Positions 11,245 through 64,000 of a stretch of 64,000 bases of DNA are shown one piece after another. Numbering within the stretch: position 1 is the first letter of the stretch; each line of letters opens with the position of its first letter. Source of the stretch: Taeniopygia guttata. Lineage: Eukaryota; Chordata; Aves; Passeriformes; Estrildidae. The notes under the pieces were generated by a model that saw nothing but the letters and a program-made list of their open reading frames with translations, made no database searches and had not been told where the DNA came from. The stretch lies in contig NC_133064.1 of NCBI RefSeq assembly GCF_048771995.1, forward strand, positions 28,933,001-28,997,000, read 5' to 3'. Both the position numbers and the translations under genes were made by a program.

Positions 11245-12649
11245 TGTCGTGGTTTGACACGGAAAAGGAATTTTTCCGGAAGGAAGAGGTCAATTTGGAC
11301 ATTGACCAATTGAAGGTAGACACGCCTCAGAGAACACAGAGGGGTTAAAAGCAGAATTCCCAGGAGAACTCGCTCTCTTAGGTTCTGGTCAGCGGTCAGT
11401 GCAGGACTCTCCCCTGCCCGGCCACGAGCTGGGTGGGGGAGGGGAAAAGCCATGTGGCCTTCGGAGGTAGGCCCAAGGGTGGAGGGGCTGGAACCGGGCT
11501 GGCCCCCTGCAGATGGAAGGGTGGAGAAAATCTGGGATGTCTCCGTTCCCCCCAGAGTCTCTCTCTCCCAAGAGAGAAAAGAGACGGCGGTGGTTTTATC
11601 AGCAGTTCACCGCGGAGAAGGAGAAGAGCAGGGGGGCCGCAAGGTGCCCAGCCGGACTGTGGGAGCTGGAGCCTGGGCAGCAAGCCATCTCTGGGAGTTG
11701 GGACTTTTAACCCTTCCTGAGAAATGAAAGCTTTGTGAAATTTTTCTCCTCCTTGGTTTGAAAAAGAGAGGAAAAGAGACAGTCTGGGACCTGGGATGTT
11801 GGAAGGAGAAATTCTAGGTGGGAGGAGATGATGGAGTGGCTTTTTGGCTGGACTTTTTCTTGGCAGCCACAGATTGAACTGATCTTCTCCTCCAAGAGAG
11901 ACTGTATTTTAGGAGGATGCCGGTGAGCCAAAGAGACCTGCTTCAGCTGGGAAAAGACAGAAGTGGAGCGAACAGAGAAAAGTTAAGGAGGTTTGTGGTG
12001 GTGCCCCCTGTCTTCGCAGAGGAAGAAGAGAAGAAGATCTCTGTTCTTGGATCCTCAGCCCCAGGGGAAAATGGGGGGGACTGTGGTCCCAAAAATGAAA
12101 AACTGAACTGTTGTTTTTTCCCCTCTTGGCAGGGCATCCTTGAAAAGGAAAAATCCTAAAACGCAGTCTGTCCATCCATGCATTGGTGATGAGAGCACTG
12201 TGCATGGAAAGGAGAGGGTCACCACTGGCAAACTTTTTTTCTCCGGGCGGTGCCATGTGGTGACATGGAAGCACAGGATGTGGCAGCTGTGTTTCTTGGG
12301 GGGTCTGTGGCACAGAAGAGACTCCTCTCTCCCTGCAGATGGACTGGGTGTTGATTATCGGGAGGGTGGAAACCTGATTGGGGTCCAGATTGTGTCTCAC
12401 TGTGGGATGTTGGAGTTGGGTGGTGGGAGGAGGAATACTTTGGAAGGTTTTCATTTTGAATTGTGGGTGTTACTTTTTTTTTTCCCTCTCTTTTATAGTA
12501 GCATAGTGGTAGTAGTTTAATAAAGTTTTTTTCTTGTAATTAAGCTTGGGCCTGCTTTGCTCTGTTCTCGATCGCATTTCACAGCATTCAGTTGAGAAAT
12601 TGCATTTTCATGGGGGGCACTGGCATTGTGCCAGTGTCAAACCATGACA
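11245..12649 (+). repeat. Solo LTR, 1.4-kb family, copy 1
   Basis: 1405 bp, TG to CA, flanked by a perfect 5-bp duplication AACAC (11240-11244 and 12650-12654). The termini are inverted repeats of about 16 bp with one mismatch. A potential stem (GGCACTGGCATTGTGCCAGTG) lies just before the 3' end. AATAAAG near 12520 is the probable polyadenylation signal, placing the sense strand on plus. It interrupts the ERVL pol. The copy at 61745-63158 is about 97 percent identical by eye. Short open frames inside it are not genes. Confidence 0.93.
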
Positions 12650-18939: not shown

Positions 18940-20262
18940 TGTCATGGTTTGACAAGGAAGTGAATTTTCTCAGGAAGTTGGTAGTCAAACCAATCAGTGG
19001 TCGGGGTTGGATATCGGCATTTGGACTGACCACTGAAGGCATGGACACGCCTCTGAGAACACAGGGGGTCAAAAGCAAGAACTCCCAGGAGAACTGTCTC
19101 TTTGGTTCCGGTCAGAGTGGAGTGCAGACTCTCCCCTGCACAGCCTCAGGCTGGGTGGGGGAGGGGCAGCCATGTGGCCCAGGCTGAGGTAGGCCAAAGG
19201 GTAGAGGGACTGGAACTGGGCCAGCCCACTGCAGATGGAAGGGTGGAGGAAATCAATGGTGACAGTAGTACACCATCGGGGGAGGGGGGGGGGAGGTGCC
19301 CAGTCATGGGAGTTGGAGGTCTGGGCAGAGATCCCGGGCGTCTGGAGAATTTGAGTCTTTTAACCCCTTCTTGGATTATGAAAGCTTTGTGAAATATTAC
19401 TCCTCCTTGATCTGAAGGAGAAGAGATGGCCTGGGAGTGAGTGGTCAGAAGAAGATGGGGAAATTAATTATAGTGTGGGAGGAGATGATGGAGTGGCCTT
19501 GGCTGGACTTTTCTTGTATAGCCATAGACTGAACCAGATTCTCCTGCAACAGAGACTGAATTTTTAGGGGGATGCAGTGGTGAGCCAAGAGACCTGCTTC
19601 AGCAGCCGAGAGTGACAGGAGTGGAGTGAACAGAAGAAAGTTGAGGAGGGTGTGGTGATGCCCTCTGTCTTCAGAGGAGAAGAAGATCTCTGTTCTTGGA
19701 CCCTCGGCCCCAGGGGAAAATCGGGGGGACTGTGGTCCCAAAATGAGAAACTGAACTGGTTTTTTTTTCTTTGGTCCTTGGTAAAGCATCCTTGAAAAGA
19801 AACCCTATGAGCAGTCTGTCCATGCATGGTGGTGAGAGCACTGTGACATGGAAAGGAGTGTCACACTGGCAGATTTTCTCCAGGCGGTGCCATGTGTGAC
19901 ATTGAAACACAAGAGGTGGCAATTGTGTTTCTTGGGGGGGTCTATGGCACAGGGGAGACTCCTATCTCCCTTGATGGACTGAGCATTGATTATCTGAAGG
20001 GTGTTAACTTGACTGAGGGTCCGAGTTGTGTCTCACTGTGGTTTGTTGGAATTGGAGGGGGGAGGATGAATGTTTTGGAAGGTTTTCATTTTGGATTTAG
20101 TGTGTGTATGTCTTTTATAGTAGTAGTTTAATAAAGTTTTTTTCCCTTTGTTATTAAGCTTAAGCCTACTCTGCTCTGTTCCTCTTTGCATCTCACAGCA
20201 TTTATTTGGGAAGGTGCATTTTCATGGGGGCACTGGCATTGCGCCAGCATCAAACTGTGACA
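18940..20262 (+). repeat. Solo LTR, 1.4-kb family, copy 2 (older)
   Basis: 1323 bp, flanked by a perfect 5-bp duplication CCACA (18935-18939 and 20263-20267). It aligns along its length to 11245-12649 but with many substitutions and small gaps, so it is clearly older. AATAAAG near 20130 keeps the same orientation. Its G content is normal, making it a useful comparison for the hypermutated copy at 56401. Confidence 0.9.
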
Positions 20263-29273: not shown

Positions 29274-29619
29274 TGTCGCTATTGAGTAAGAAATGACACA
29301 GACTCATCAGAAGGCTGATTGGCATAATGTGAGCATTGTATATTTGGAACTGCTCCTTTTTATAAGCTGTTCCAATCCAGGTAGACTTGATTGGTCATTC
29401 AGTTAATACATTTCACCTGATTGGCTAATTAACAGGATGCTCTTCTTATAAACAATCTTTGAGAAAAACAAGAAAACAAAGAGTAGGAAAACAACACCTG
29501 CAGGTTGTTTATAATAATAAGCTATCATTGTTTATCTTCAACTCCCTAAAGTCTCTCAGGTAGATTCTGGGAAAACTTATCTAGTTGTCTTGCTCTCTGA
29601 TCAGGCTGTCACATCCACA
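29274..29619 (-). repeat. Outer ERVK 3' LTR
   Basis: 346 bp, matching 42585-42914 along its length with small gaps (for example an extra AATCTTTGAGAAA segment near 29455). TG...CA ends. It is followed at 29620 by the complement of a polypurine tract. Confidence 0.85.
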
Positions 29620-29959
29620 TGTCCCCCTTTTTGTTTAAAGGAGGAGGTGGTGTTTGTAATCCTCTGTGGGGACCCTTGCAGAAAGGAGAACAAAACACTG
29701 TTCCAGAGGTTCCTCTAGCAGTTGCTAGTTATCAGTCAGAACCTCAATTGGATGACATTTTGAAATGGTCAGAGAGGTCAAATCTTGTGATTTCATCTTA
29801 CAAGAAATAGACTTATAATCTTAACATCAGTTACCTATTCTAATACACTATCACTACTAAGTCTAATATAGTAACAACATATTGTTAGTTTGTTCAAAGA
29901 ACTGACAGTCTTAACTTGTCAACAGTCCTTTTCCAGAAACAAGGAAAGGATATAATGTT

Positions 29960-32793: not shown

Positions 32794-33136
32794 TGACGTT
32801 CCCCCCCTCACACTGCCCCCTGAATAATCAGGCTAGCCCAGAGATCCGAGGCTTTGAAGGGAGGAATATCAGGAGATGGCAAAGATTTCCAAAAGAGGCT
32901 CTTACCCCGAGATATGTTGGTTCAGCTCTCTTTATTCTGTGATGTCCTAGGGGAGAGCGGGGCAAAAGAGGACAAACAGGAAATGTCAGGGGTCTATATA
33001 GACTTTGGACAGGGTGGGCTTCTCTGGCTCTCTGCAAACCCCGTTGGGGCAGGAAGGAGGGGTCCAGGGTTATCTTGATCAGAGTCACGAGGTCCCAGGG
33101 AGGGGGGAACAGAATGCCCATGAGCACAATGTAACA
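32794..33136 (-). repeat. Inner ERVK 3' LTR
   Basis: 343 bp. On the minus strand it begins TGTTACA, preceded by the polypurine tract AAATAAGGGGGAGG (33137-33150), and ends GGAACGTCA. TATATAG near 32995 lies in its promoter region. Confidence 0.92.
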
Positions 33137-33185
33137 CCTCCCCCTTATTTGTTAAACAAGGTTACAGGAATTCACTGGGCTCAAT

Positions 33186-33470
33186 TCAACCCTGAGTATG
33201 GGTTTCCCACCACCTACAGTTAGTGGCGTAGTCAGGCCTCCTCAGGTTTGCCAACTCTATGTGGCTGACTTCTGAGGTAGAAGGTATGAGACCCTTGATA
33301 GCCTTGAAAATCAAGTGACGCAGGATCCTGAATGCCAAGGTTACAAGGAACAAAATAACAAGGAGTAACAAAATTGATCTAACAATAGATGTCCACCACC
33401 CCATGAATCCCCAACCCTTAAACAATCTTTTCAGCATTCGCAGGATGACAACTTGGATGGGGTTCATCAC
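33186..33470 (-). pseudogene. Inner ERVK envelope TM tail remnant
   Basis: About 94 codons on the minus strand, with a long hydrophobic Leu/Val/Ile-rich anchor followed by a basic cytoplasmic tail, ending just before the polypurine tract. No SU or ectodomain is present between this and integrase, so most of env has been deleted. Assignment rests on position and membrane segment. Confidence 0.6.
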
Positions 33471-33564
33471 AGGGTTGAGTGGGAGGTAGGTTTTCTCTAA
33501 GAGGGAAAAACAAACATTTTAAGAACATATTAAGGTTTCTGTTTCTGCCGGAAGGAATTCACAC

Positions 33565-36302
33565 TTAGGAACATTCCTCTTCTTCCATCCAGCAGCGTCT
33601 TCTTTCCATCCAGCAGCGTCTTCTCTTTGAAGCATCAGCTACTTGCTTCCTGTCCCCTTTTGTCTGACCTGGATTCTTGGGGACAAAAGGTTTCACCCAT
33701 TTCTGGGGAATCCACCGAGGGCCTGAGGGAGTAGCTACACATGCATAGCCACGACCCCAGGTTACAAGTTCATAAGGACCCTTGGCTTCCCAAGTTTCTG
33801 GATCCCTAATCAAGACCGGGGGATGCTGAGACAATTTGAACTGGTTGCCACTGTTAAAGTGACGTACAACAGGTGGACTCATGTTTTCAAATGAAACGTT
33901 CAGAAAATTGATGGTAAACATGGCTTTACAGAGCTTCTCTCGTGGAGACATCCACGGAGCTGAACTGTTTTGTTTCTTCAATACCTGTTTGAGCGTCTGG
34001 TGTGCACGCTCGACTACAGCTTGACCTGTGGGGGAGTGGGCAATGCCAGTCTTATGTTCCACTCCCCACTGTTGGAGAAATTACAGAAACTCCTTGGATA
34101 TATACACTGGGCCATTATCTGTTTTGATAATTTTTGGAACCCCCAATACTGAAAACGCTTGCACTAGGTGTTGTTTGAAATGCGCAGCCTTTTGTCCTAT
34201 ATGAGCAGAGGCATACACTGCACCTGAGAATGTGTCCACCTTTACATGAATGCATTCAAGGCGACCAAAACTCTGAATGTGTGTGATGTCTGTCTGCCAT
34301 ACCTCACAGCTGCTAATGCCTCTGGGGTTTACCCCCATGCCCAACAATGGCACGGCCTGGAGCTGGATATTACGACAGTTGGTTCCAATGGCTCGAGCCT
34401 GACTCCGTGTTAGCTGGAACTCTTGAATCAAACCTGGCACATTCTGATGGTAATGCTGGTGACTCAGCTTTGCCTGTTGGAAGATATCAGGGAGATGTGC
34501 TTTTTCGACTGGCGCAGCAAGGGAGTCTGCTTTGCGATTCCCCTCTGCAATCTGACCTGGCAAATCAGTGTGTGACCTCACATGCATCACAAAGAATGGA
34601 TGCTGTCCGAGAGAGATTAAATAAATCAGCCTTGAGAGCAACCTGAAGAGAGGTTCATTTTCTATTTCTTTGAGCACAGCCTGCTCCGCCCTGGACACGA
34701 CTCCTGCCACATAGGCAGAGTCTGTCACCAAGTTGATCGGCTCAGAAAACTTCTCAAAAGCTCTCACCACTGCAGCCAGTTCAGAACCTGGGGGGATCCC
34801 TCCACAAGCTCAACATCAGCTTCCCAAAGCTGAGTCTGTGGGTTTCTCCAAGTCATCACCGACTTGTGGGAAGCCCCAGAGGCATCCGTGAACACTGTGA
34901 GAGCCTTGAGTGCCCACCGGCTCCTTTTCTCTTGAGGAATAAGGTGGAATTCCTCATTGAACAACTTGTGAGACGGGGCATGGACTGATATTTGTCCCCT
35001 GTAGCTGTCCAGAGATAGCTGGAGATTGGCGCTGCTCTGGCACAAATGCTCAAACATCCCTTTGGTCAATCTCTCAGGAGAGTTCCTTCCCTTCTCAGAA
35101 AGCCTGACTGGAAGGTGGATACATGCAAAGTCACACCCTGCTAATTTGCACAATCTCACCCTGGCCTTCTGAATCAGCTTTTCTATCAGCTCTTGTGGCC
35201 GAGTGATGGTTTTGGATCTTTGGAGCGATAGGAAAACCCATTCTCTGATTAAGAGTAGATCCTTCTGCCCCTCGATCAATTGGAAAATCAACCCATGTAG
35301 GTGTGGCAGCTTTCCTAGAACAATGAACTGGAAAGGCACGTTTGGGTCACACCGATGTGCCTGCCTTTCTGACAAGGCCTTCTCTACCTTTTCGATTGCA
35401 GTCTTTGCCTCTGGGGTCAGTTCCCTGGGGGAGGCCAGCTCCCTCTCCCCCTTCAATAAATTGAAGAGAGGTTCCAGGTCCCCATTTGTGAGGCCTAGCC
35501 ATGGTCTTACCCAATTTAAAGACCCACACCGCGAGTGGAGATCTCCTAATGTTCTGGGGTTGCAAATAATCTCCAATTTCTGAGGGACAATAGTCCTTGC
35601 AGAGATTTCCAGGCCCAGGTATCTCCAAGGTGGCATTCTTTCAACTTTGTTTTTCTGCAATTGAAATCCAACAGAGGTTAAAACTTCAACCACTAGGTCA
35701 AGCGTGTATTGGAGTATAGAGTCATTGGGAGCACACACAAGCACATCATCCATGTAGTGAAGGATGATGGCGTCCTTTCTGTCTGCATGTACTGGAGACA
35801 GTAGTGCTGCTACATACTGTTGGCATATGAAAGGGCTGGATTTTAAACCTTGGGGCAAAACTTTCCAGTGGTAGCGTTTCATTGGAGCTTCCCGATTGAT
35901 GGTAGGAACTGAGAATGCAAACCTCGGGGCATCTTCAGGGTGCAATGGAATTTGGAAGAAACAGTCCTTTATATCTAATACAGCTAAATTCCAATCCTGG
36001 GGGAGCATATCTGGACTAGGCATTCCCAGTTGGAGAGGTCCCATGTCCTCTACAATTTTGTTTATTTCTCAGAGATCGTGGAGCAATCTCCACTTGTCCT
36101 TCCCAGGCTTCTTTATTACAAAGACTGGGAAATTCCAAGGGCTTTCTGTCTCTTGCAGGTGTCCTTGAGCTAACTGCTCCTTCACAAGTTTCTCAAGTGC
36201 CTCGAGTTTCTCACTACTCACAGGCCACTGTGCTACCCACTTTGGGGTGTTATCCAACCACTTTAACTTGTGGGCAGGGTGCTCCACAGTGGCTACTTCC
36301 AA
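33565..36302 (-). pseudogene. Inner ERVK pol (RT, RNase H, integrase), two stops and one frameshift
   Basis: The minus-strand frame begins near 36302 with the RT N-terminal palm. A TGA at 36069-36071 follows the LLHDL block. RT then continues openly with YMDD at 35745-35756, connection and RNase H start (TDASGASHKS near 34880) to 34764. The frame shifts at about 34770. RNase H ends with TDSAYV, and integrase follows with HHCC residues, a WQTDITH block (about 34280) and KTDNGP (about 34110). A TAA lies at 34081-34083, and the frame then runs through the catalytic Glu helix to 33565. The last codons hold an 18-bp tandem duplication. Otherwise it is well preserved. Confidence 0.9.
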
Positions 36303-37108
36303 AAATCCTGGGGTGTTTTACGAATGATTAACTGGAATCCCCATTGGGACATGGTGTCTCTCCCCCACAGAGGAGCCTTATAGCCTGCCACAAATGGGCG
36401 AACACTTGCCAATTTCCCATCAGGTCCCTCAATTTGCACAACATTTTTTTAAATTTTTGCCAATGTGGTTCCTCCTATGCCCTGAAGTTTGCCTGCCACA
36501 GGTTGCAATTCCCAGTGCCGTGGCCACATGGTTTTGGGTATCACCGTGATGTTTGCACCTGTTTCCAGAACCCCTTCCACCTGAAGGTTCTCTGACCCAT
36601 GTGCTAGGTTGCATGCCATGGAGGGTCTATCCTCTCCTACTACCTCTGCCCAGTAGACTTCTGGTGATTTTCCTTCTACTGTTATTTCTACTGGGATGGG
36701 AATGGCTTGTGCCAGAATTTGCCCCTTTTCTAGATAGAATAAGGGTGTAAACAGCGTGCCAACAGCATAAGACTGGATATTTTTCCCTTAGTGGTCATGG
36801 GAACTATTTCAATCTCAGGAGGTGCGTATGCTGTGTCCCCAGTAACAAAATACTCACTGTCCAGTTCCATATCGTACGCCTGCAGGTCTTGTGAGCTGTT
36901 TGACAGGTCCACTATAATGACTTCCCAATCAGTGGTTCTGAAATGAAATCCTTTGGCAGTCACTAGGCGAGGTCTCCCTAGCGGCTGCCAGACCTTGTTA
37001 GTTGTACATTTTACATTTTTATTTTTCTCTTCCCCCCTCCACCATGAGTTCTGCCCTCCCCCTTATTTTTTAAGAGAGAGGCATTTTCCCATCTGGGTCC
37101 CGCTATAT
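36303..37108 (-). pseudogene. Inner ERVK protease region, catalytic DTG changed to ETG
   Basis: Minus-strand translation from about 37000 to 36303 gives a dUTPase-like or linker segment (36730-36963) and then the protease. Its expected active-site triad reads ETG at 36558-36566 instead of DTG. A stop lies downstream near 36450, and the C-terminal GRDTMSQWGF-type block is at about 36330-36360. Asp-to-Glu at this position would disable a retroviral aspartic protease. Confidence 0.7.
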
Positions 37109-38898
37109 TTATATCTTTGCACGTAGTTGTTTTAGCAGCGGGCACGCACTGTCCACGTAGTTTTTTTGTTTGTTGATCTGTCTCTGGTTCTGGTTTTGAG
37201 GATAGTTTCTGGCAAAGTGTCCTTGTTTCTTGCAACGCAGGCAGATGATGTGCTGCAGCTGTTGTGATGACATTGGTTGCCTCCTTGGACTTGGTGCAGC
37301 AGTGGCAACAGGCTGTAGTTCTGCAGATGTTGTATGACTGTCAGGGGTATGGAGCAGCTCTGCTCTCCTGGCGCAGGCATCAATCATCTGAGCAAGACTA
37401 GGTGCTTGGTCGAGAGGAAGACTGAGAATACTTATACAACAGGTCTCATTTGCATTCCTCTGAGCCATCTCTTTAATCAGCTCTGTTTGTACCCTGGGGT
37501 CTTGCACCTGTCTCTCAACTTGGGTTCTCAAACGATCCACAAACTGTAAAAAACTCTCGGAAGGAAACTGTTTAATGTTAAGATAGCTGCCCTTAGCCTC
37601 AGTTATTGGTAATTGATACAATGCTTTTTCTGCAGCATTACAGATTTTTTCCAAAACCGATCTAGATAACAGTCTGGTTTGTTTTTCTGGGCATTGTATG
37701 TCTCCTGTACCGCATAAATGATGCATTGTAATAGGATTGCCATCACTGTCAATGGCCTCACTGGGTGTATGTTGTATTTCTTGTAAAACTACTGTCAAAG
37801 CTAACTTACACTTATTTTCCCATATCTCATAATCAGAAGGTGTTAGTAAACATTTAAAAAAATCAGTAAAATCTTTAGGTACCATTTCATTTGAATTAAA
37901 CATTGCTTTAATCATACCTTTAAAAATCTCACTGGACCTCCCAAATTCTCTCTGTATTTTACAGATCTCTTTTGTCTCTATATGGTAGTGGCTGGTATGT
38001 TCCGGTACCGTTGCTCCTTCCTAAATAAACAACCGGTGCTGTAGATTGTATAGATTCCTCAGCAGAGGCAGGGTTGTGTCCCCCCTGCTACCCCCTGGGT
38101 CCCGGTGAGAGGCAGCTCGCCCCCTCCCTCCTGGGGTGTCGGTGCCGCGGTGGAAACTCCGGCCCCGCCCATGCTGTGAGCGGCTGGGCTGCCCTGACCT
38201 CTGCCTGCCGCGCTGTACTCAGTGCTGGGGCTGGGAGCTGTGCAGGGGCCAGCCCCTCCCCCGTTCCCGGGGCAACTCGGGGGCTGGCTCTGATAAGGAG
38301 GGTGTGGGGGGGCTGTGGGAGATCGGAAGGGATTGGAGGAGGGGTGGGTGGGTGGGGGCAGGAAAGGGCTGGGAGGGGGAGGGGGAGGGGGACAGAGCAC
38401 ATGGTCGCCACCATTATACTCCCGCGTGGGTTTCAGAGACATTGCAGGGAGCTGTGAAGATAATTCCTCAGTTTCGGAGAAATCCGGACTATATTTCTCA
38501 GAAGAACCAGGTGTTAGAAGAGGATAGAGGGTGTGTGAAGGGATATCAGGGCTGGGATATTGAGGAGGTGGGTAAGTGGGTGAAAAGGGATTATTCGGAC
38601 TGTGATTCTGTATTTGTATGCTTTTATCTGCTTCCAAGATCTTTTTTTGTGCTTGTAAAAATATCGGAAGAAATCAAGAAGCTTTATGTTCACCATTTTT
38701 GACTTTTAAAGTTAATATCTGTCCAATTTGGTCCCAAAAAGAAAGCAAATTCAGTTCTTGCACAGTAAAATTTGGTATTTCTGCTATTAACCAGCATACA
38801 AAACGCAGGAGGAGCTTATTTGAGAACGATACATTGTTTAAAATATTGCTAAGGTGTTTTAGTGTGCTCTTTTGTTCCACCGATACTTTTGCACCCAT
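37109..38898 (-). pseudogene. Inner ERVK gag (matrix, Pro-rich, capsid, nucleocapsid), broken
   Basis: The likely start is ATG 38898-38896, giving Met-Gly-Ala-Lys, a myristoylation-type matrix N-terminus. A TGA lies at 38674-38676. The same frame then continues through a Pro-rich region with PPPQYP and several polyproline runs (38059-38637). A frame change follows, and capsid to nucleocapsid is open at 37109-37915. The visible zinc knuckle (about 37200-37245) has Tyr in place of its last Cys. The GC-rich stretch 38060-38420 is part of this Pro-rich coding region. Confidence 0.85.
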
Positions 38899-39479
38899 TA
38901 TTTTAATTGTATCGCTGGTCTATTCTCCACCAGACTTTGTAACACAGCACGAATTTTTTGAATTCCCGCCGTATAAGGGGATCCAAGCGGGGGGGGGGGG
39001 GGGGGCGGGCGGAGGGGCGCTCGTCCCGCCGCTGCCAGAGCGGCTCCTGCCCTAACTCTGGGGACAGGGGGGTTTCTCCCGCCGCTGTGCCAGAGCTGTT
39101 GGCTCCCTCCCGTCACTTCTCCCCCCGGGAACGCGGGTACTTGTCAGCCCGCCGGTTCCAAGCTGGCGTGCGCAGGGTTCCTGGCTCCCCTCGCAAGCAG
39201 CGCTCGCAGTCACTATGGTAGCTCCTCCCAGCCAGGCGCGATCCCGGAGTGATGTGAACGAAGGACTTACCAAGCCTATGAACTGCAGGGTTCGTCTGTG
39301 AACTCGTCTGGGGTCCGTCTCCAGTCGGCTCGCCTGGGGTACTCAGGCAAGGTCCCCGACTTTTCCCTGTCACTCAAAGCCTTTAAAGGCAGCTAGAGTA
39401 ATAGGGCAGTTGACTGTCCCAAAAAGCTATCGAGATCCTCTCAAATAGGGTCTCCAGCTTCTTCATGGGCTTATAGGCA
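38899..39479 (-). other. Inner ERVK 5' leader
   Basis: Untranslated leader between primer site and gag. It is GC-rich, with an uninterrupted C/G homopolymer of about 17 bases near 38989-39005 that will be hard to assemble. No convincing gene. Confidence 0.6.
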
Positions 39480-39497
39480 GCACACATTGGGCGCCAA
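39480..39497 (-). promoter_or_regulatory. Inner ERVK primer-binding site, tRNA-Lys type
   Basis: The minus strand reads TGGCGCCCAATGTGTGCT, one base beyond the LTR. The first nine to eleven bases match the Lys-1,2 primer class used by betaretroviruses; the rest has diverged. Confidence 0.7.
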
Positions 39498-39498
39498 C

Positions 39499-39841
39499 TG
39501 ACGTTCCCCCCCTCACAAAGCCCCCTGAATAATCAGGCTAGCCCAGAGATCCGAGGCTTTGAGGGGAGGAATATCAGGAGATGGCAAAGATTTCCAAAAG
39601 AGGCTCTTACCCTGAGATAAGTTGGTTCAGCTCTCTTTATTCTGTGATGTCCTAGGGGAGAGTGGGGCAAAAGAGGACGAACAGGAAATGGCAAGGGTCT
39701 ATATAGACTTTGGACAGGGTGGGCTTCTCTGGCTCTCTGCAAACCCTGTTGGGGCAGGAAGGAGGGGTCCAGGGTTATCTTGATCAGAGTCACAGGGTCC
39801 CGGGGAAGGGGGCACAGAATGCCCGTGAGCACGCTGTAACA
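39499..39841 (-). repeat. Inner ERVK 5' LTR
   Basis: 343 bp, the partner of 32794-33136, with the same ends. It is bordered on the right by the ATCTCC target duplication. Confidence 0.92.
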
Positions 39842-40226
39842 ATCTCCCTGAGGCAATTGCGTGTTGTCTGCTGCAATCCTTTCAGCAACCTGCCTCCAGT
39901 TGTCCAGAAAAACCCTAAATTGCACAGGCTGGAACAATATTTGAGCTGTATGTTTAATATCAAATGGAGCAAGAGGATCTGTGTTTATCATTCTAAGAAC
40001 CTGCATAACTTGTGCAGAGCCAAGGCCATATTTTACAACCTTATCTTGCAAATCCTGGACCACCCTCCAGGCAATTACATCATGCCTGTCAGCTTGTCCC
40101 GTATTTGGGACAGCTTTATACACAGGAAAAGCTTGAATCACTCTTCGTGGTGGAACATTTTCTTCCTGAACCACCTGTGTCTCCTCCACAGATGCTGGAT
40201 TAACTGTTTGACTGACATCCGTGGCC
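39842..40226 (-). pseudogene. Outer ERVK gag, capsid N-terminal part
   Basis: Minus-strand coding from about 40189 to the inner ERVK boundary shows a typical retroviral capsid N-terminal domain: FPVYKA near the start, then helices including IAWRVVQDL and the LFQPVQF block near 39930. It is interrupted by the inner provirus and continues at 32793. Confidence 0.8.
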
Positions 40227-40232
40227 CCTTCC

Positions 40233-40538
40233 TGTGGAGGCTCTCAGTTCAGTCAAAGAGAGAACAGAGAGAATTCTCTCAGGCTTTGGCCTGGGAAAGT
40301 TAGGAGAAAGAATTCAAACAATTATTATCTCTCTTTCTGTTCATGTTGTTTATAGTTGTGTTGTTAGAGAATGTGCTATTCATAGTTCACCAATAGAGTG
40401 AAAGGTTTTGACTTTGAGACCAATCATATTTCACCTTAGTGAGTCAGACTATAAAAGCACTTGCTACTTCTTAATAAATGCTCTTTTAGCCTTCTGAACC
40501 ATGGAGTCATTTCGTCCATCCCTGACTCAACAGCATCA
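40233..40538 (+). repeat. Solo LTR (306 bp) inside outer ERVK gag
   Basis: TGTGGAGG start and CAGCATCA end, flanked by a perfect 6-bp duplication CCTTCC (40227-40232 and 40539-40544). TATAAAAGC near 40452 and AATAAATGC near 40472 give plus orientation and a compact promoter/polyadenylation layout. It is unrelated in sequence to the ERVK LTRs around it. Confidence 0.85.
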
Positions 40539-40544
40539 CCTTCC

Positions 40545-42248
40545 CTCGGATCTGGTGTGGTGTCAGCTTCACAGCATGGCATTCCCACCCTTTCTAGCAG
40601 GTTCCAGTCTCTAAAGCTTGCATCTTAACTGCTTCCCAAAAGTGGCGAGGGTTCTTGGGGCGCAAGGTCACCTGATAGGGGGGCAAAGTCCACAGATTAC
40701 TCGGGGACGATGTTGGTGCCAGCACTCTGCTGCCAGGGCATGCCCCCACCAGGGGGCTGACCATTGGCATTCATCGCTGTCGCTGTCCCCATCCAGGGAT
40801 GGGGAGGACAGTCTGCAGGTAGCGGGGGGGGGGGGGGGGGTGGGTTGGCCAAAGGCTCCAAAGTTGAGGGACCGACTGCGGACTGCGAAGCTGAGGGGCT
40901 GATTACAAGCCCTGTTGTGGAGGGGCTGACTTCCGGCGGTGACGCAGCCGGAGGCCCAGCCGCAGATGGGGGCTACAGACGTGGCTGTCACCGGCACGGG
41001 CTGCAATGGCAAAGCTGCAAAAGACATTACGTCAACTAAGTCAGCCGCCATGCAGGGAGTAGGAGGAGGCAGTTGTTTTGCAACTAAAGGTGGGGGGGCA
41101 AAAGGGAACACAGCTCCTGTTGTGTGATTTACCAATTGGAGAGATGCTACTGGTGCCGCGGTCACTGTTGCTGTCATCTGCGTAGGCACCATGGAAAAGG
41201 GGGGGGAAGCTGGCGGGGGGTGTGACATTCACTGGAACAAATGCTCGTCAGCAGGTGCTGATGATGGGTGCAGCTAGTACACCTGCACAGGCTCCATGGC
41301 TGACAACAAGTGAGCTTACAGAGGGACTGCTCCGGCTGTGGTGACTGCTGCCGACGGAGGTGGTTCCGCCCTCACCCGCAGTGTGGGGAGGGAGAATCTG
41401 AGTCGGGAGCAGCTCCTGCAGGCCGTGATGGAGTCGGTTCCCGGCTTGCGGAAGGGGGAAGGTGGGGCCAGCAGGCAGGGCCAAGTGGCTTGTGGGGCAG
41501 CGCAAGGCTGTCCTCCTGGACGAGGCAAGGCTGGCCAAAACACAGACATGTCTGCTGCATCCCACGGAGTGGAGGCGGGCATCACTGGTGACTGGAGTGG
41601 GGCCAGCTGTTGCAGCGACTCACCAGCCGCTCTTTGCGGGGCAGGGGAAAGCTGATCCACTGGGCATGGCAGCGACAGTTCTGGCGCCTCCAGCAGCGGT
41701 AGAGGGGTTGAAAGCAGCATAAACAGGGAGGGGCCATTCCCCGGGTGCGGCCAGGACACGGCTATCACACTCAGCAGTGCCAGTTTTGTGGAAGGACACA
41801 TTAGTCTCACATAATCATAGGGATGAGGATATTTCGGTGGAACATAATCTCTAGGTGAGAGATAGGTTCCGCAGGGGATCCCCATGTCCCCCGCCAGTAC
41901 GTGCAGTGCCAGAGAAAAGCCATCAGTCGCCTGGCCTACCGTTCCTCCCCTCGTGGTGTTGATGCCCCCAGAGGCAACATCGTCACCCTCTGAGGCCTCC
42001 ATTTCTGATTCGCTTTCCCTCTGAGTGTGGCCTCGGAAGACATGGGACAGGAGTCCCCATACAGGTATAAGTTGAGGCATGGTGGAATCCCCATTACCAA
42101 CTTCTTCCATGAGCCGGTAGCCTAATGTTTTCCACAGTTGCAGACTAAAAGCAGTCTCTATATCTACCGGAAAGTCATGAGATTTGGCCCAGGCAAGCAG
42201 AGTGCAGAGTGACTCATCTGACACAGACTCCAATAAATGTCCTTCCAC
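40545..42248 (-). pseudogene. Outer ERVK gag, matrix and proline-rich part
   Basis: From ATG 42248 the minus strand encodes a betaretrovirus-like matrix (FSLQLWKTLGYRLMEEV, then a WGLLSHVF block) followed by low-complexity, Pro/Ala-rich sequence to 40545. At least one frame change lies near 41230-41320. A G run of about 18 bases at 40827-40845 is a possible assembly error site. Confidence 0.72.
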
Positions 42249-42564
42249 ACAGAAACAATCATGCGTCCTTCCCTAGAGAGGTGACTCCCCATTGTGAAAA
42301 CACTGGCCCCCAACCTCCAGCAAGAGGTACTGACTGCTTTGCTGGGGAATTCGTTCCCGCCCGAGCTTTTAAACTATCAGGGCAAAACCATGATCCCAGT
42401 CCTTTCCAGGAGGATGCGGGGAAAGGTAGTTACCTCTCCAGAAGAATAGAGGTTGTCCAGACATGGACAGGCTGTGTGGGCGCCACGGGGTCCCAGCAGA
42501 GTTCCAGCGGGGTACAAGGTGTCCCTTCATCTGTCCTGCGATCCAAAAGGGCTGACCGATGCAA

Positions 42565-42582
42565 ATCACATCGGGGTCACCA
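42565..42582 (-). promoter_or_regulatory. Outer ERVK primer-binding site, tRNA-Trp type
   Basis: The minus strand reads TGGTGACCCCGATGTGAT, which matches the tRNA-Trp 3' end with one mismatch, two bases beyond the LTR. Trp primers are typical of avian alpharetroviruses and some ERVK. Confidence 0.8.
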
Positions 42583-42584
42583 GA

Positions 42585-42914
42585 TGTGGCTATTGAGTAA
42601 GAAATGACACAGACTCATCAGAAGGCTGATTGGCATAACGTGCACGCCGTATATTTGGAACTGCTCCTTTTATAAGCTGTTCCAATCCAGATAGATTTGA
42701 TTGGTCATTCAGTTAATACATTTCACCTGATTGGCTAATTAACAAGATGCTCTTCTTATAAAACAAGAAAACAGAGAGTAGGAAAACAACACCTGCAGGT
42801 TGTTTATAATAATAAGCTATCATTGTTTATCTTCAACTCCCTAAAGTCTCTCAGGTAGATTCTGGGAAAACTTATCTAGTTTTCTCGCTCTCTGACCAGG
42901 CTGTCAAATCCACA
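42585..42914 (-). repeat. Outer ERVK 5' LTR
   Basis: 330 bp, the partner of 29274-29619. Ends TGTGGCTA and ATCCACA on the plus strand; followed by CATATA, near-identical to CATATC at 29268-29273. Confidence 0.85.
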
Positions 42915-49415: not shown

Positions 49416-56400
<6,985 letters not shown>

Positions 56401-57778
56401 TGTTGGTTTGGTTTGATAAGGAAGTGAGTTTTTTCAGGAAGTTGGGGTTAAACAAATTAGTAGTTAGATTTATATATTGATGCTTAAAGTGACTACTGAA
56501 GGCATTAGACACGCACGCCTCTGAGAACACAGGGGGTTAAAAGCAGAAAACTCCCAAGAGAACTCTCTCTTTAGTTCCAGTCAGCAGAAGAGTGTAGACC
56601 TCCCCTGCCCAGCTGCAGGCTGGGTGGAGGAGGGGTAGCCATGCAGCCTAAGAAAGGTAGGCCCAGGGTGTGAAAAGACTAGAACTGGGTCGGCCCCTGC
56701 AGACAGAAGCGTAGAGAGAAACTGAGATGTCTTTGCTCGCCCCCCCCAGAGGGAGAGAAAGAGAGAGAGAGGCAGAGCCACCTGAAAATTTAATATCATG
56801 TGCCAGCAGTACCCCGGCGGAGAAGGAGAAGGGAGGGGGGTGGAATGTGCCCGGCCATGAGAGTTCTGAGAAAGCCAAAATTTCAGCCATCCTAGAAGTC
56901 CGAGACTTTTAACCCCTTCTTAAACAATAAAAACTTTGTACAACATTAATCCTCCTTCATCTGAAAGAAAAGACAACCTAGAGCCTGAAATGTCAAAAAA
57001 AGATAAAGAATCCCAAATAAAAAGAAATTAATGACTTTTAGCTAAACTTTTCTTATATAACCATAAACAAAACCAATTTCTCCTGCAACAAAGACTAAAT
57101 TTTTAAGAAGATGCAATAGTTAGAGCCAAAAAAGTGACCTGCTGCAGTAACACCAAAAAAGTAATAAAAGTAAAGTAAACAAAAAAAGATTAAAAAAGTG
57201 TAATAGTGCCCTCTGTCTTCAAAAAAGAAAAATCTCAATTCTCAAGACCCTCAGCCCCAGGGGAGGAGAAAATAAGAAAAACTGTTATGGCAAAATAAAA
57301 AACTGTTATTCTTTAATCCTTAACAAAACATCCTCAAAAAAGAACCCTATAAACAGTTTCAGTCCATACACAGTATTAAAATACTATAACATAAAAAAAA
57401 AAGAATGACAATAACAAATATTCTCCAGTTACCATATATAACATAAAAGTCCTAAAAGTCTATAATACAAAAAAACCTCCTCTCTCCCCTAATAAACTAA
57501 ATATTAATCATCTAAAAAGTAGTAACTTAATTAAAAGTCCAAATTTTATCTCACTATATTTTATTAAAAACTAAATAAAAAGAAAAAAATATTTTAAAAA
57601 AATTTTGTTCTAAATTCAGTTTATATCTTTTATTATAGCTATAAGTCAATAAAATTTTTTCCTATATTTCTAAACTCAAGCCTGCTCTACTCTATCCCTA
57701 ATCACATCTCACAATACTAATTTAAAAAAGTATATTTTCATAAAAACACTAACGTTACACCAACATCAAACCATAACA
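56401..57778 (+). repeat. 1.4-kb family LTR, copy 3, G-to-A hypermutated in its 3' two thirds
   Basis: It aligns along its length to the copies at 18940 and 58548. From 56401 to about 56920 base composition is like the other copies. From about 56920 to 57778 almost every G of the homologous sequence is A, while C, T and A are kept: GGCTGGAC became AGCTAAAC, and a 60-base block at 57541-57600 retains a single G. AATAAAATTTT near 57646 fits the family polyadenylation signal. The left flank ends CTACTA and the right flank starts TATGTC in CR1, so there is no target duplication and one side was probably rearranged. Confidence 0.88.
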
Positions 57779-58547
57779 TATGTCTACCTGGACTTCAGCA
57801 AAGCCTTTGATACTGTCTCCCATAGCATATTCCTGGAAAAGCTGGCAGCCCATGGCTTGGACAGGTACACTCCTCGCTGGGTTAAAAACTGTCTGGATGG
57901 CTAGGCCCTAAGCATGGTGGTAAATGGTGCCACATTCACTTGGCAGACAGTGACTAGTGGGGTTCCCCAGGGCTCAGTATTGGGGCCAGCCCTGTTTAAT
58001 ATCTTTACTGATGATCTGGAAGAGGGATCGAGTGCACCCTCAGTAAGTTCACAAACAACACTAAGTTGGGTGGGAGTGTTGATCTGCTGGAGGGTAGGAA
58101 GGCTCTGCAGAGGGATCTGGATAGACTGGATCAATGGGCCAAGGCCAACGGTATGAGGTTCAATATGGCCAAGTGCTGGGTGGGTCCTGCACTTCAGTTA
58201 CAACAACCCCATGCAGTATTACAGACTTGAAGAAGAGTGGAGTGGTTGGAAAGCTGTCTGACAGAAAAGGACCTTGGGGTGTTGGTTGACAGCTAGCTGA
58301 ACATGAGCCAGCAATGTGCCCACATGGCCAAGAAGGCCAATGGTATCTTGGCCAGTATCAGGAATAGTTTGGGCAGCAAGACCAGGGAGGTGATTGTCCC
58401 TCTGTATTCAGCACTGGTGAGGACACACCTCAAATCCTGTGTCCAGTTCTGGGCCCCTGACTGCAAGAAAGACATTGAGGTGCTGAAGTGTGTCCAGAGA
58501 AGAGCAACAGAGCTGGTGAAGGGTCTGGAGCACAAGTCCTATGAGGA
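57779..58547 (+). mobile_element. CR1 LINE ORF2 fragment (reverse transcriptase region)
   Basis: Translation of the plus strand gives CR1 polymerase blocks: VYLDFSKAFDTVSH, then [16 protein letters not shown], and further on the [16 protein letters not shown] and [12 protein letters not shown] blocks, with stops and frame changes. Both ends abut LTRs of the 1.4-kb family. Old and inactive. Confidence 0.92.
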
Positions 58548-59414
58548 TGTCATGGTTTGAAACGGAAGTGAATTTTCTCAGGAAATGGGGTCAAACCAAT
58601 CAGTGGTCAGGTTTGGATATCAGCACTTGGAGTGACCACTGAAGGCATGGACATGCCTCTGGGAACACAGGGGGTTAAAACCAAGAACTCCCAGGGGAAC
58701 TTTCTCTTTGGTTCTGGTCAGTAGAAGGGTGCCCAGCCACAGGCTGAGTGGGGGAGGGGAAGCCATGCTGCCTGGGAGAGGTAGGCCAGGGTGTGAAGGG
58801 AGGGGAACCGGGCCAGCTCCTGCAGACAGAAGGGTGGAGGAAATCTGAGATGTCTTTGTTCCCTCCCCCCACCACCAGAGAGAAAGAGATAGAGAGCCTG
58901 AAGGCACCTGGAAATTTACCAGCAGAGGAGAAGGAGAAGGGGGGAAAGGTGTCCAGCACGGGAGTTGGAGTCTGGGCGAGATTTCAGCCGTCCAGGGAGT
59001 CTTTTAACCCTTTCCCGGGAAATGAAAGCTTTGTGAAATATTACTCCTCCTCGATTTGAAAGAGAAGAGAGACAGTCTGGGACCTGAGATGTTAGGAAAA
59101 GAATCCTAGGTGGGGGGATGATGATGATGGAGTGGCTTTTGGCTGGACTTTTCTTGTTAGCCGTGGACTGAACCAATTTCTCCTCCAATAGAGACTGCAT
59201 TTTTAGGGGATGCAATGGCGAGCCAAGAGACCTGCTTCAGCAACTACCAGCACAGGAATGGAGTGAACAGAGAAAAGCTGAGCAGGGTATGCTGATACCC
59301 TCTGTCTTCAGGAAGAAGATCTCCGTTTGCACCCTCAGCCCAAGGGGAGGAGGGAAATGGAGGGGACTGTGGTCCCAAAATGAAAACTGAACTCTTGTTT
59401 CTTTTGGTCCTTGG
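58548..59414 (+). repeat. 1.4-kb family LTR, copy 4, cut by tRNA-Arg ERV
   Basis: Starts TGTCATGG inside CR1 after GAGGA. It aligns to copy 2 up to GGTCCTTGG, where the third provirus begins at 59415. The remaining 3' third would lie beyond that provirus, outside the window. G content is normal, unlike copy 3. Confidence 0.85.
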
Positions 59415-60077
59415 TGAAATAAAGATTTTCAGAGTTCACTCGAGCTAACAAAACAAATTTAACTTTTAGCTTGTAGAATCATTTGTTGAATTTTAATAAA
59501 CCTCTGCCATGGTACAAAGGGCATAGGGAAATGTAAATCTTTGAAGCTTCTTGCATAAAAGACAATACCAGAGAAGACCAGGGAATGCAAAGAACCCGGA
59601 CAAGGAGGCCCCTCTGTTTCCGGGAATGCAAAGAACCCAGATAAAGAGACCCCTCTGTCTCCAATCATATCAAGGCTAACAGACATACTCAGATAAGACA
59701 CCAAAGGACCAAAAGTGCATGTGCAGAGGAGGAAAGTTCAAAAGTTCAATCCAGAGGAAGACTACAATTTTCAGCCTCAGAAGACCACCAGAGACCCCCG
59801 CGGGACCACCGCAGCAAACCACGCATGCCCAGAAGGGCGTAGACCTATCTAGCATGAGAGGCGAGGACAGGCGGGGCCAGGGGTTGAATATGCATAGAAA
59901 AGTTATGTAATGTATTGCATATGGAACACCTCTGTGAATAAAGATGTGGGACAGACTGCGGCTCGGGGCACAAGTTTTTGGAGAGCTATCTCGCTTGTGC
60001 CGGGAGCTGACATACATATCCACTTCATAACTACATCGAGTTATGAAGTCTATTTATTTATTCCACGTATCGCTTCA
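59415..60077 (+). repeat. 5' LTR of tRNA-Arg ERV
   Basis: 663 bp, inferred from TGAA start and TTCA end, the junction with the LTR family copy on the left, and a primer site directly to the right. AATAAAG near 59938 is the likely polyadenylation signal. A 17-base near-duplicate block (GAATGCAAAGAACC) occurs at 59583 and 59624. Confidence 0.75.
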
Positions 60078-60079
60078 GT

Positions 60080-60097
60080 TGGTGACCACGAAGGGAC
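60080..60097 (+). promoter_or_regulatory. Primer-binding site, tRNA-Arg type
   Basis: TGGTGACCACGAAGGGAC starts two bases after the LTR end. It matches the 3' end of tRNA-Arg(UCG), CCA included, at 17 of 18 positions as I know that tRNA. Confidence 0.7.
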
Positions 60098-60479
60098 GTC
60101 TCTGCTCACCTGCGAGTCTGGTTGAGGGCAGACGCCCTCAGGCGCCGCGGGGCTTTTCCCCAGAGGGACTCTGCGCCTCGGCTGTACACTGCGGGGAGCA
60201 GACCACATCCCGTCGACAAGCGGACCAAAAGAGGTATGTATTATTTTCTTTTCCTAAGGATTGGCACTGATAAGTCGCATTAAGACGTTTTTGCGCGCAG
60301 GTTTGCCAAGGGGCTTGCAAGCAGACTGCCACCGAGAGTAAGATCGGCGGCGGAGAGGTTCTACCCTGCAGCCAATAGCGCGGCTAGGGGGGAAGGAAGA
60401 AATCCCAATTTCAGTGTGGTGTGTTTGTTACGTCCGGACGTGCGTGCTTGTATACGTGTGTGTGTCTGTGTGAGTAAAA

Positions 60480-60742
60480 CAGTAGCACGCGGCGCGGCGG
60501 TGCTGGAAAGCGCGGCGTGGCGTTGCTAGGATACCTAAACGCGGCGCGGCGGTTCTGGGAAAGCGCGGCGTAATGTTACTAGGATACCTAAATGCGGCAC
60601 GGCGTTGCGACATTGCTGGAAAGCGCGAGTGCGAGGCAGCTCTCAGCCGGCACTGTCTGATAGAGCAGATGGGCGCATTTGCGAATGCGAGGCAGCTCTC
60701 AGCCGGCACTGTCTGATGGAGCAGATGGGTGCATTTGCTTGA
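60480..60742 (+). repeat. Two tandem repeats in retroviral leader
   Basis: First array: a GC-rich unit of about 53 bp (GCGGCGCGGCGG, then CTGGAAAGCGCGGCG, then TTGCTAGGATACCTAAA), about 2.5 copies from 60488 to about 60625. Second array: a 56-bp unit (GCGAGGCAGCTCTCAGCCGG...) present twice, at 60631-60686 and 60687-60742, with few differences. They sit between primer site and gag, where packaging or IRES-like RNA structures are found in other retroviruses. Confidence 0.85.
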
Positions 60743-61101
60743 TAGGGCAAGCAATGCGCATGCACGGCGCGGGCTGTCTCTGGTGAGCGGGAGCGCGGCG
60801 CAGACTTGCAAAAGTGCTTTAAGTGCAGCTTGGCTGATAGCGCAGCGGGCGCGCGGGCACAAGCCGCGGTTTGTGGAGTTGCTTTGAACGCCGCTAGCTA
60901 ATAATGCAGTTAGTAGGGACGTGGTACAAGTTAGGACTTACAAGCACCGCTCACAAGCATCGCTGGTTAGTAAGGGCCAAGAATCAGCTAAAAGTAATCA
61001 ACGAGCCCAACAGGAGTTCAGTGTTTGTTGTGCAGTAATACTGCCCTACTGCCCTTCAGAGTCAAAAGCATTTGCTGCTGAGTTCTTGCTAATTTGGACT
61101 G

Positions 61102-61124
61102 AAAAAAAAAAAAAAAAAAAAAAA
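61102..61124 (+). repeat. Poly(A) tract of 23 bases in leader
   Basis: An uninterrupted A run flanked by GACTG and GCCACC. It could be a slippage-prone microsatellite or the tail of an unrecognised retroposed fragment. Confidence 0.6.
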
Positions 61125-61397
61125 GCCACCTAGTCCCTGAAACCTGGGACGTGTTTTAAAAAGAAGAACTAAGGATTTTTTTTTTTCTCTCCTTTTCCTA
61201 TTCTTTCCTCCCCAGTGGTTTGGATTGAACCCTTAGGAGTCTGTAAATTTGTGGGGGAATGGACAAACAACAAGTTAATAAATGTTAATGGTTTATTATG
61301 AATATTTTATTTGAAATTATTATTATAACAACAAAAAAACCCAGATTTTTTTATACATATTTGAACTGAATAAGTTAAGTTTGCTCTAAAAGACATA

Positions 61398-61744
61398 ATG
61401 GGAGCAAAACAAAGTAAAGAACTACCCAAGGCCAGCCCATTAGGGCGCATCTTAGCTCACTGGAAAGAAATAGCAGGCAAAGGGGGTGTGGAAAATAAAA
61501 AAAAAGTTTAATCAAATATTGCTTCCATTGGTGGCCATTATATAGCCTAGAGGAGGGGACCAGATGGCCTCTTACAGGTACATTAAAGTATAATACCTTG
61601 TTACAGCTAATGCTATTTTTATGAAGGGAAGGGAAATGGGAGGAGGTTTCTTATTGTGATATGTTCTTCTCCCTCCGGAATAACCCTGATTGGCAAAGGG
61701 ACTGTGGCATCAGGGCCTCCTCTGATCCCCTCATTCTGGCTCTT
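61398..61744 (+). pseudogene. tRNA-Arg ERV gag, matrix part
   Basis: ATG 61398 gives Met-Gly-Ala-Lys, a myristoylation-type start, then SPLGRILAHWKEIAG, like the start of gamma-type matrix proteins. The frame reaches a TAA near 61510 after a run of nine A, and matrix-like coding resumes in another frame (WWPLY-type segment near 61535). The A run suggests a slippage frameshift. The solo LTR begins at 61745. Confidence 0.75.
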
Positions 61745-63158
61745 TGTCGTGGTTTGACACGGAAAAAAGAATTTTTCCGGAAGGGAGAGGTCAATTTGGA
61801 CATTGACCAATTGAAGGTAGACACGCCTCTGAGAACACAGAGGGGTTAAAAGCAGAATTCCCAGGGGAACTCGCTCTCTTGGGTTCCGGTCAACGGTCAG
61901 TGCAGGACTCTCCCCTGCCCGGCGATGAGCTGGGTGGGGGAGGGGAGAAGCCATGTGGCCTTCGGAGGTAGGCCCAAGGGTGGAGGGGCTGGAACCGGGC
62001 TGGCCCCCTGCAGATGGAAGGGTGGAGAAAATCTGGGATGTCTCCGTTCCCCCCAGAGTCTCTCTCTCTCCCAAGAGAGAAAAAGAGACGGCAGTGGTTT
62101 TATCAGCAGTTCACCGTGGGGAAGGAGAAGAGCGGGGGGGCCGCAAGGTGCCCAGCCGGGCTGTGGGAGCTGGAGCCTGGGCAGCAAGCCATCTCTGGGA
62201 GTCGGGACTTTTAACCCTTCCTGAGAAATGAAAGCTTTGTGAAATTTTTCTCCTCCTTGGTTTGAAAAGAGAGGAAGAGAGACAGCCTGGGACCTGGGAT
62301 GTTGGAAGGAGAAATTCTAGGTGGGAGGAGACGATGGAGTGGCTTTTGGCTGGACTTTTTCTTGGTAGCCACAGACTGAACTGATCTTCTCCTCCAAAGA
62401 GAGACTGTATTTTAGGAGGATGCCGGTGAGCCAAAGAGACCTGCTTCAGCTGGGAAAAGACAGAAGTGGAGCAAACAGAGAAAAGTTAAGGAGGTTTGTG
62501 GTGGTGCCCCCTGTCTTCACAGAGGAAGAAGAGAAGAAAATCTCTGTTCTTGGACCCTTGGCCCCAGGGGAAAATGGGGGGGACTGTGGTCCCAAAAATG
62601 AAAAACTGAACTGTTGTTTTTTCCCCTCTTGGCAGGGCATCCTTGAAAGGAAAAATCCTAAAAGCAGTCTGTCCATCCATGCATTGGTGGTGAGAGCACT
62701 GTGCATGGAAAGGAGAGGGTCACCACTGGCAAACTTTTTTTCTCCGGGCGGTGCCATGTGGTGACATGGAAGCACAGGATGTGGCAGCTGTGTTTCTTGG
62801 GGGGTCTGTGGCACAGGAGGGACTCCTGTCTCCCTGCAGATGGACTGGGTGTTGATTATCTGGAGGGTGGAAACCTGATTGGGGTCCAGATTGTCTCTCA
62901 CTGTGGTTTGTTGGAGTTGGGTGGTGGGAGGAGGAATGCTTTGGAAGGTTTTAATTTTGAATTGTGTGTTTTCTTTCTTCTTTACCCCCCCCCCCCCTTT
63001 TTATAGTAGCATAGTGGTAGTAGTTTAATAAAGTTTTTTTCTTGTTATTAAGCTTGGGCCTGCTTTGCTCTGTTCTCAATCGCATTTCACAGCATTCAGT
63101 TGAGAGACTGCATTTTCATGGGGGGGCACTGGCATTGTGCCAGTGTCAAACCATGACA
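61745..63158 (+). repeat. Solo LTR, 1.4-kb family, copy 5 (young)
   Basis: 1414 bp with a perfect 5-bp duplication CTCTT (61740-61744 and 63159-63163). About 97 percent identical by eye to copy 1 at 11245-12649. AATAAAG near 63027. A C run of about 13 bases lies near 62984-62996. Confidence 0.93.
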
Positions 63159-64000
63159 CTCTTGAAAAAGAAAACAGAAGCAAAATGAGGAAACTTAAAC
63201 GGTGCTGCTCGGCCTGTAGCATAGGACAGAGGTGCACCAGGACAGATAAAGTTTATCACACAGCACTAGAGGAACAAGAACAAGATCTAGGCAACATATT
63301 TAGCCCTCACCTGGGGGAGCAAAGGGGAAGGGGTGGGAACTTAGGAGGGGCAGCAGCACCACCTACATCACCTACACCACCTACATCACCTACACCACCT
63401 GCACTACCTGTTCCACCTATTCCTCCCATTAATTCTACTCCTTCTCCTTCTTTGGAGAAGACACACGCTCCAACCCCTCCAAGCAGCCCAATTGCATCCC
63501 GAACCAGAGGACAAATACTGCAGGCCCCTTTACGGGAGACAGTAACATCAGGGGGAGAAAAGATACTAGTTAAGGTGCCATTCTCCACCCTTGATTTGGA
63601 AGCATGGGAAAGGGTTGCAGGAGATTACCGAAATGACCCAGTCAACCCTGCTAAACATCTACGGTACATTATGAAGCAGCACAACCCAGACTGGGGTGAT
63701 ATTCAGTTGTTATTAGATGCATTCACTGAAACAGAAAAATAGTTGGTTCTAAAAACAGCAGGAGACCTGGTAGCAGACCACTTTAGACAACAACAAGTGG
63801 ATCTAAGGGAACATTTTCCACTTCAGGACCCAGGCTGGAACCCAAACACACCAGAAGAAAGACAAAGGCTAAAGAAATATCAGGATTGGTTTATATTGGG
63901 AGTGGAAAGAGCAATGCCTAAAACTACAAATTGGTCAGCTCTATATGCTATTAAACAGGGACCCTTGGAATCCCCCACAGAGTTCCTAGACCACCTGAGA
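63159..64000 (+). pseudogene. tRNA-Arg ERV gag, Pro-rich and capsid part
   Basis: After the solo LTR the frame runs through a basic Cys-containing segment, a proline-rich repeat (12-bp units CCACCTACATCA at about 63358-63405) and the gamma-type capsid start (KVPFSTLDLEAWE near 63575). TAG lies at 63740-63742, and the same frame continues openly to the window edge through the conserved QGPLESPTEFLDHLR block (major homology region). One nonsense change therefore splits capsid. Confidence 0.85.

Follow-up and report, generated by a model that had tools for sequence, protein, structure and literature searches.

How did a single LTR in the genome of the zebra finch (Taeniopygia guttata) come to lose most of its G, mainly over its 3' two thirds, and did this happen before or after it entered the genome? 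The LTR, referred to as copy A, lies on contig NC_133064.1 in the stretch of 64,000 nt that was analyzed (the window), together with four related copies, C1 to C4, which served as references (Table 1). Copy A starts with TG, ends with CA and carries an exact duplication, TATGT, on both sides, which marks it as a complete solo LTR of a retrovirus-like element. Its identity was 68.8% to C2 (906 columns) and 63.2% to C1 (1433 columns), values taken over different spans, and the sequence comparison indicates that C2 is probably its closest relative. The family of all five copies, which occur without an internal region, is putatively ERVL (class III). The 3' flank at 57784-58547, which we assume to resemble a CR1 LINE fragment, has no second copy within the 64,000-nt window; it directly follows the 3' duplication of copy A and runs up to the first base of C2, so that both of its edges bear an LTR insertion. 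The motif AATAAA occurs seven times in copy A, once each in C1, C3, and C4, and not in the 3'-truncated C2. The AATAAA site listed in Table 1 may mark the end of R, and the R and U5 regions named below are putative.

Table 1. Positions in the window of copy A, its parts and flanks, and the four reference copies.
Feature	Position	Strand	Evidence or counts
Copy A, solo LTR, 1375 bp	56404..57778	+	TG...CA termini, exact 5-bp duplication, homology to four other copies
5' target-site duplication TATGT, copy A	56399..56403	+	Identical to 57779-57783
3' target-site duplication TATGT, copy A	57779..57783	+	Matches 5' duplication exactly
LTR head, C-to-T excess (plus-strand deamination signature)	56404..56505	+	6/8 changes after T
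Weakly raised or near-background G-to-A	56506..56868	+	Majority ancestor: G>A 26/115, C>T 4/72, A>G 20/76
First edited level, ~60% G to A	56869..57276	+	G>A 65/108, C>T 4/67
Purine-rich island with surviving G in edited part	57246..57278	+	Lowest residual of context and position model
Second edited level, 83% G to A	57277..57778	+	G>A 111/133, C>T 11/84; survivors mostly GT
AATAAA signal position	57648..57653	+	Once each in C1, C3, C4; motif list and alignment
3' flank of copy A, G content normal	57784..58547	+	G 29.8% in 57777-58549
C1 reference, solo LTR, duplication CCACA	18940..20262	+	
C2 reference, 3'-truncated LTR	58548..~59418	+	
C3 reference, solo LTR, duplication AACAC	11245..12649	+	
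C4 reference, solo LTR, duplication CTCTT	61745..63158	+	

For the main substitution count the five copies were aligned and only columns with at least two reference bases, all agreeing, were used (unanimous columns). For the change-point, context and region counts the ancestor was a weighted majority (C1 and C2 with weight 2, C3 with 1, C4 with 0.5); the context and change-point fits omit G turned into C or T, and the last two LTR bases, neither of them G, are omitted. As a pairwise check, two scoring schemes were applied to alignments of copy A with C1, C2, and C3. The ancestral base rests on four copies; C2 stops near 57325, and much of the head is missing from C3 and C4.

The window also holds other elements. 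The gammaretrovirus-like element at 1097-10360 is a young insertion, its LTRs (593 bp) being 99.5% alike; its matches to Gag_p30, RVP/RVT_1, RNase_H/rve, and TLV_coat lie in single open frames. A second element at 32793-39848 has minus-strand frames and an LTR-like pair about 94% alike, with matches to Gag_p24 and RVT_1/RVT_thumb in between; around it, at 29274-42914, are two repeats that lie 13.3 kb from each other and are 91% alike, and this pair and the enclosed element are possibly nested insertions. Tandem repeats with periods of 53 and 56 lie in a G+C-richer stretch at 60487-60738. An Rfam scan of 50000-64000 and a tRNA scan gave no matches.

The earlier note had described strand-specific G-to-A hypermutation in 56920-57778 and proposed an alignment with a count of substitution types. 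This count bore the description out, as 135 of 186 ancestral G in unanimous columns were A in copy A, compared to C-to-T at 8/114, A-to-G at 6/157, and T-to-C at 17/195 (G>A versus C>T, odds ratio 35, p about 2e-31, Fisher). Equal rates of C-to-T and G-to-A change, which the note regarded as evidence against editing, were looked for and were absent. In the upstream part (56401-56919, unanimous columns) G-to-A change affected 27/123 sites, C-to-T 9/69, and A-to-G 11/74, and the difference in G-to-A between the edited and the upstream part was significant (p 1e-18, Fisher). The G content followed the same pattern, with 29.5% in 56404-56919, 8.3% in 56920-57776, and 29.8% in 57777-58549. Pairwise against C1, C2, and C3, both schemes gave G-to-A fractions of 45-64% in 56869-57276 and 75-86% in 57277-57778, where just 8-14 G of the second range come from C2. 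The G state at the counted sites is present in all four other copies, and five comparisons among these copies gave G-to-A at only 13/256, 23/270, 32/399, 29/396, and 7/440 (2-9%), with C-to-T at about the same level. Moreover, no clear G/A excess was seen in the LTR-like pairs of three other window elements, where A/G versus C/T differences numbered 1 and 0, 9 and 4, and 5 and 6, out of totals of just 3, 19, and 15 differences.

That nearly all G had become A, as also claimed, holds for the last 450 bp (57331-57778), where 99 of 110 scored G are now A, but not for the rest, since the losses in four successive blocks of 56920-57778 were 26/46 (57%), 27/40 (68%), 41/52 (79%), and 41/48 (85%). 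Similarly, the start proposed at 56920 is not abrupt; the onset lies nearer 56869 and is graded, with two rises. The best single change point was 56863/56869 (support 56860-56922), but a single sharp edge was rejected, since one step gave an AIC of 404.0 versus 382.0 for two steps; a step with a ramp (386.5), a logistic ramp (389.1), and a hinge (389.8) lay in between. In the two-rise fit, G-to-A change rose at 56869 and 57277 from about 23% to 60% and then to 83%, and the gradient inside the edited part had a likelihood ratio of 19.5. The profile shapes fitted to copy A point to no one mechanism. That the edge marks how far the cDNA was exposed, or the place of a strand transfer, as had been suggested, is possible, but the profile is graded, and since copy A is a solo LTR, a crossover between LTRs could also have created the edge.

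Upstream of the first rise, in 56506-56868, there were hints of weak editing. G-to-A exceeded C-to-T (p=0.002), G followed by a purine (GR) was changed at 25/75 sites versus 1/27 for G followed by a pyrimidine (GY; p=0.002), and the pairwise comparisons with C1, C2, and C3 gave 15-19% G-to-A and 6-12% C-to-T. Since A-to-G change was equally high in this purine-rich sequence (20/76), such weak editing is inseparable from poor alignment. Within the edited part, the island at 57246-57278 retained more G than predicted by the context and position model, its residual being reached in a fraction of 0.0125 of 2000 simulations. Shelter of surviving G in hairpins, which is an expectation for single-stranded DNA, was dropped as an explanation, because kept and edited G were similar in predicted pairing, with no significant difference among 12 comparisons (p 0.135-0.64); for the C2 minus strand, the fold spanning the island had a z of -1.43.

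The base following the edited G, which the earlier note had singled out for examination, revealed a preference. In 56905-57778 the edited fractions were 57/65 for GG, 60/75 for GA, 20/28 for GC, and 30/47 for GT, which on the minus strand reads as CC and TC above GC above AC. Over 56869-57778 a purine after G was favored (GR 122/148 versus GY 52/79, p=0.008), and in 57331-57778 nine of the 11 surviving G were in GT, the kept fractions being 9/30 for GT, 1/18 for GC, 1/32 for GG, and 0/30 for GA. In the controls the purine preference was not significant (p 0.3-0.6), with 5/135 versus 0/58 in C1, 9/141 versus 6/62 in C2, and 14/146 versus 4/60 in C3. A preference for GG and GA is known from HIV-1 editing by APOBEC3G/F. 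No preference for WRC (GYW on the plus strand) was detected (31/37 versus 136/178, p=0.39), in a test weakened by near-saturation; AID is therefore not favored, and was set aside as the editing enzyme within the limited power of that test. Birds are not known to have APOBEC3, and hence APOBEC1 is a candidate enzyme for the editing of copy A. Decay of CpG, which the earlier note had argued against, can be ruled out as the cause, since only 3 of 218 context-scored G in 56905-57778 were preceded by C.

At its 3' side the G loss runs to the very end of the LTR. Each of the 12 G inferred for the ancestor in 57742-57775 has become A, including the last one at 57775, and the number of G goes from 4 in the final 100 bp of the LTR to 21 in the 100 bp that follow it. 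The flank is thus spared (8.3% G inside versus 29.8% in the 3' flank, a comparison of composition on the 3' side only). Since the loss ends at the junction of the 3' LTR and the genome, editing most likely preceded integration, and one would not expect clustered genomic mutations to halt at the LTR end. The strand bias, target preference, gradient, and stop at the 3' junction agree with the earlier attribution to an APOBEC-type enzyme acting on minus-strand cDNA, and such deamination before integration is, with high probability, the best explanation. An APOBEC-type cytosine deaminase would have acted on exposed minus-strand cDNA during reverse transcription, giving G-to-A on the plus strand, with exposure presumably longest at the U5 end and declining toward U3. 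The edited DNA would then have integrated, and we infer that recombination between the LTRs deleted the internal part and left copy A as the solo LTR of an endogenous retrovirus.

A different kind of change, which the earlier note does not mention, was found at the opposite end. The start of U3 is a place where the plus strand is briefly single-stranded in reverse transcription. At sites with C in both C1 and C2, a rule that ends the range near 57325, C-to-T change affected 8/14 sites in 56404-56505 versus 4/105 from there onward (p=1.6e-6, with the boundary set post hoc). Pairwise, the head gave 8/16 or 9/16 against C1, 8/16 against C2, and 2/6 or 6/8 against C3, which lacks much of the head. 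A pyrimidine before C was not significantly preferred (7/8 versus 2/6 for a purine, p=0.09). No G-to-A change was present in the first 50 bp of copy A (0/13), and both types were raised in 56450-56499 (G>A 6/12, C>T 5/9). The plus strand is described as briefly single-stranded during reverse transcription in a passage of PMC4117599, where the C-to-T excess on the plus strand of HIV is reported as not significant, in contrast to the C-to-T-rich head of copy A. Among the titles and abstract openings of the literature searched, none described an LTR combining a C-to-T head with a G-to-A tail.

Editing of the cDNA may have taken either of two forms, which divide the confidence placed in that explanation and do not add to it. 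One, tentatively the somewhat better candidate though short of an even chance, is that the 3'-LTR minus strand was displaced while the 5' LTR was being completed and was edited from U5 inwards, while the U3 start of plus-strand strong-stop DNA, edited C-to-T, went on to form the 5'-LTR head; a crossover near 56869 or 57277 would then have joined this 5'-LTR head to the 3'-LTR tail in the solo LTR. The C-to-T cluster of the head with six of its eight changes after T, the unedited G of the first 50 bp, and the climb of G-to-A to the U5 end are all in favor. Against it, the pattern comes from one locus, the head boundary is post hoc and the head is covered mainly by two references, both change types are raised in 56450-56499, the pyrimidine preference was not significant, and HIV has no significant C-to-T excess (PMC4117599, as cited above). 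Mouse Mtv proviruses bear on both sides, since G-to-A specific to the 3' LTR was observed and displacement proposed, yet the changes specific to that LTR lie in U3 except for two, and not in U5, according to excerpts of Shaffer et al. (2025; PMC12548423). It is doubtful, though conceivable, that this one solo LTR keeps both late single-stranded intermediates of reverse transcription, as C-to-T at the U3 start and graded G-to-A from the 3' LTR, joined by recombination. The other form, to which we give slightly less weight than to displacement, is that minus-strand R-U5 was deaminated before the first transfer, so that R would begin at the edge and the edits would pass into both LTRs. A gradient peaking at the first-made U5 end fits this form, but since AATAAA aligns near 57648 it requires an R of about 750-800 bp, which is long by usual standards. 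Moreover, C1-C4 contain neither TATAA nor TATAT, the two-level profile lacks a single sharp start, and the C-to-T changes of the head are left unexplained. Editing of strong-stop DNA by A3G is nevertheless described for HIV in part of a review (PMC7760323).

Explanations other than editing of the cDNA of copy A itself fare considerably worse. Poor alignment does affect the purine-rich upstream part, as seen from A-to-G at 20/76 in 56506-56868, but in 56869-57778 C-to-T was at most 15% and A-to-G at most 7% as compared to 45-86% for G-to-A in the alignments tried; neutral decay, CpG loss, and misalignment are thereby refuted for this part, and the chance that they account for the pattern is negligible. 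Deamination of the integrated DNA in a cluster, of AID type or linked to R-loops, could in principle leave such a footprint, since genomic deamination of this kind generally yields strand-biased clusters. This is nonetheless very improbable, because the 3' limit falls within 3 bp of the LTR end, the G content shows no depletion past the junction, and no WRC preference was seen (p=0.39, a test weakened by near-saturation). A less remote, though still improbable, alternative is that copy A inherited its A from an element that was edited once and then amplified into an A-rich subfamily. Editing has been suggested as a source of LTR subfamily diversity in finches (excerpts of PMC6523648), but none of the four other copies within the window, C2 included, shares the A-rich tail, and this alternative, too, would trace the A back to editing. 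Searches for related DNA gave 0 matches in viral_contigs and genome_contigs, which are viral and prokaryote collections and uninformative on birds.

Editing of LTR elements is known in birds, as the earlier note had stated, and the zebra finch is a reported strong case. In the account of PMC6523648, consulted here in excerpt, Knisbacher and Levanon (2016) attributed G-to-A change in LTR elements to APOBEC and, among 111 vertebrates, found it "especially strong in zebra finch", a study cited also in parts of PMC6497032 and, as a catalog, of PMC12548423. Copy A shares the APOBEC-attributed G-to-A with these elements but differs from them, since it is a solo LTR and its editing is concentrated in the 3' two thirds. 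Its density is about 193 G-to-A per kb (176 in 910 bp, 56869-57778, majority ancestor), or 157 per kb at unanimous sites (135 in 859 bp, 56920-57778), whereas the higher of the zebra finch entries that PMC12548423 lists in its Table 3 has 71.5 per kb across 5,486 bp; we claim no record, because the value for copy A describes a short peak within a G-rich LTR and the entry is a mean over a whole element. The excerpts of PMC12548423 report for Mtv21 120.8 G-to-A per kb and a G content of 8.3% in env, the value also found for 56920-57776 of copy A. Mtv21 and Mtv61 (Shaffer et al., 2025) resemble copy A in ultra-editing that spares the flanks, steep gradients, LTR-specific edits, and LTRs of more than 1.3 kb. 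In contrast, they are two-LTR proviruses edited by mouse APOBEC3, with few (2-16) LTR-specific differences per provirus, which in all but two cases lie in U3, and no C-to-T head is described for them in these excerpts. In HIV-1, APOBEC3G/F likewise deaminates minus-strand cDNA and targets strong-stop DNA, whereas the gradients there peak 5' of polypurine tracts and copy A has no internal sequence (PMC7760323, in part). Such editing is known in birds and mammals, but it is unusually dense and uneven in copy A.

Ultra-edited LTR elements show that retroelement cDNA is deaminated even in hosts without APOBEC3, such as birds, which are not known to have it, and copy A is dense enough for a target preference and an order of exposure to be read from one locus. 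The strand-split footprint is the part of copy A worth following. If the split between head and tail recurs in other copies, it would add to the warning, voiced in part of PMC12548423, that LTR divergence is an unsafe basis for dating elements, and solo LTRs would provide a test of where in reverse transcription the avian deaminase acts. If copy A does keep both late intermediates, edited solo LTRs would preserve, as a fossil record, the identity of the exposed strand and the length of its exposure in an avian retroelement.
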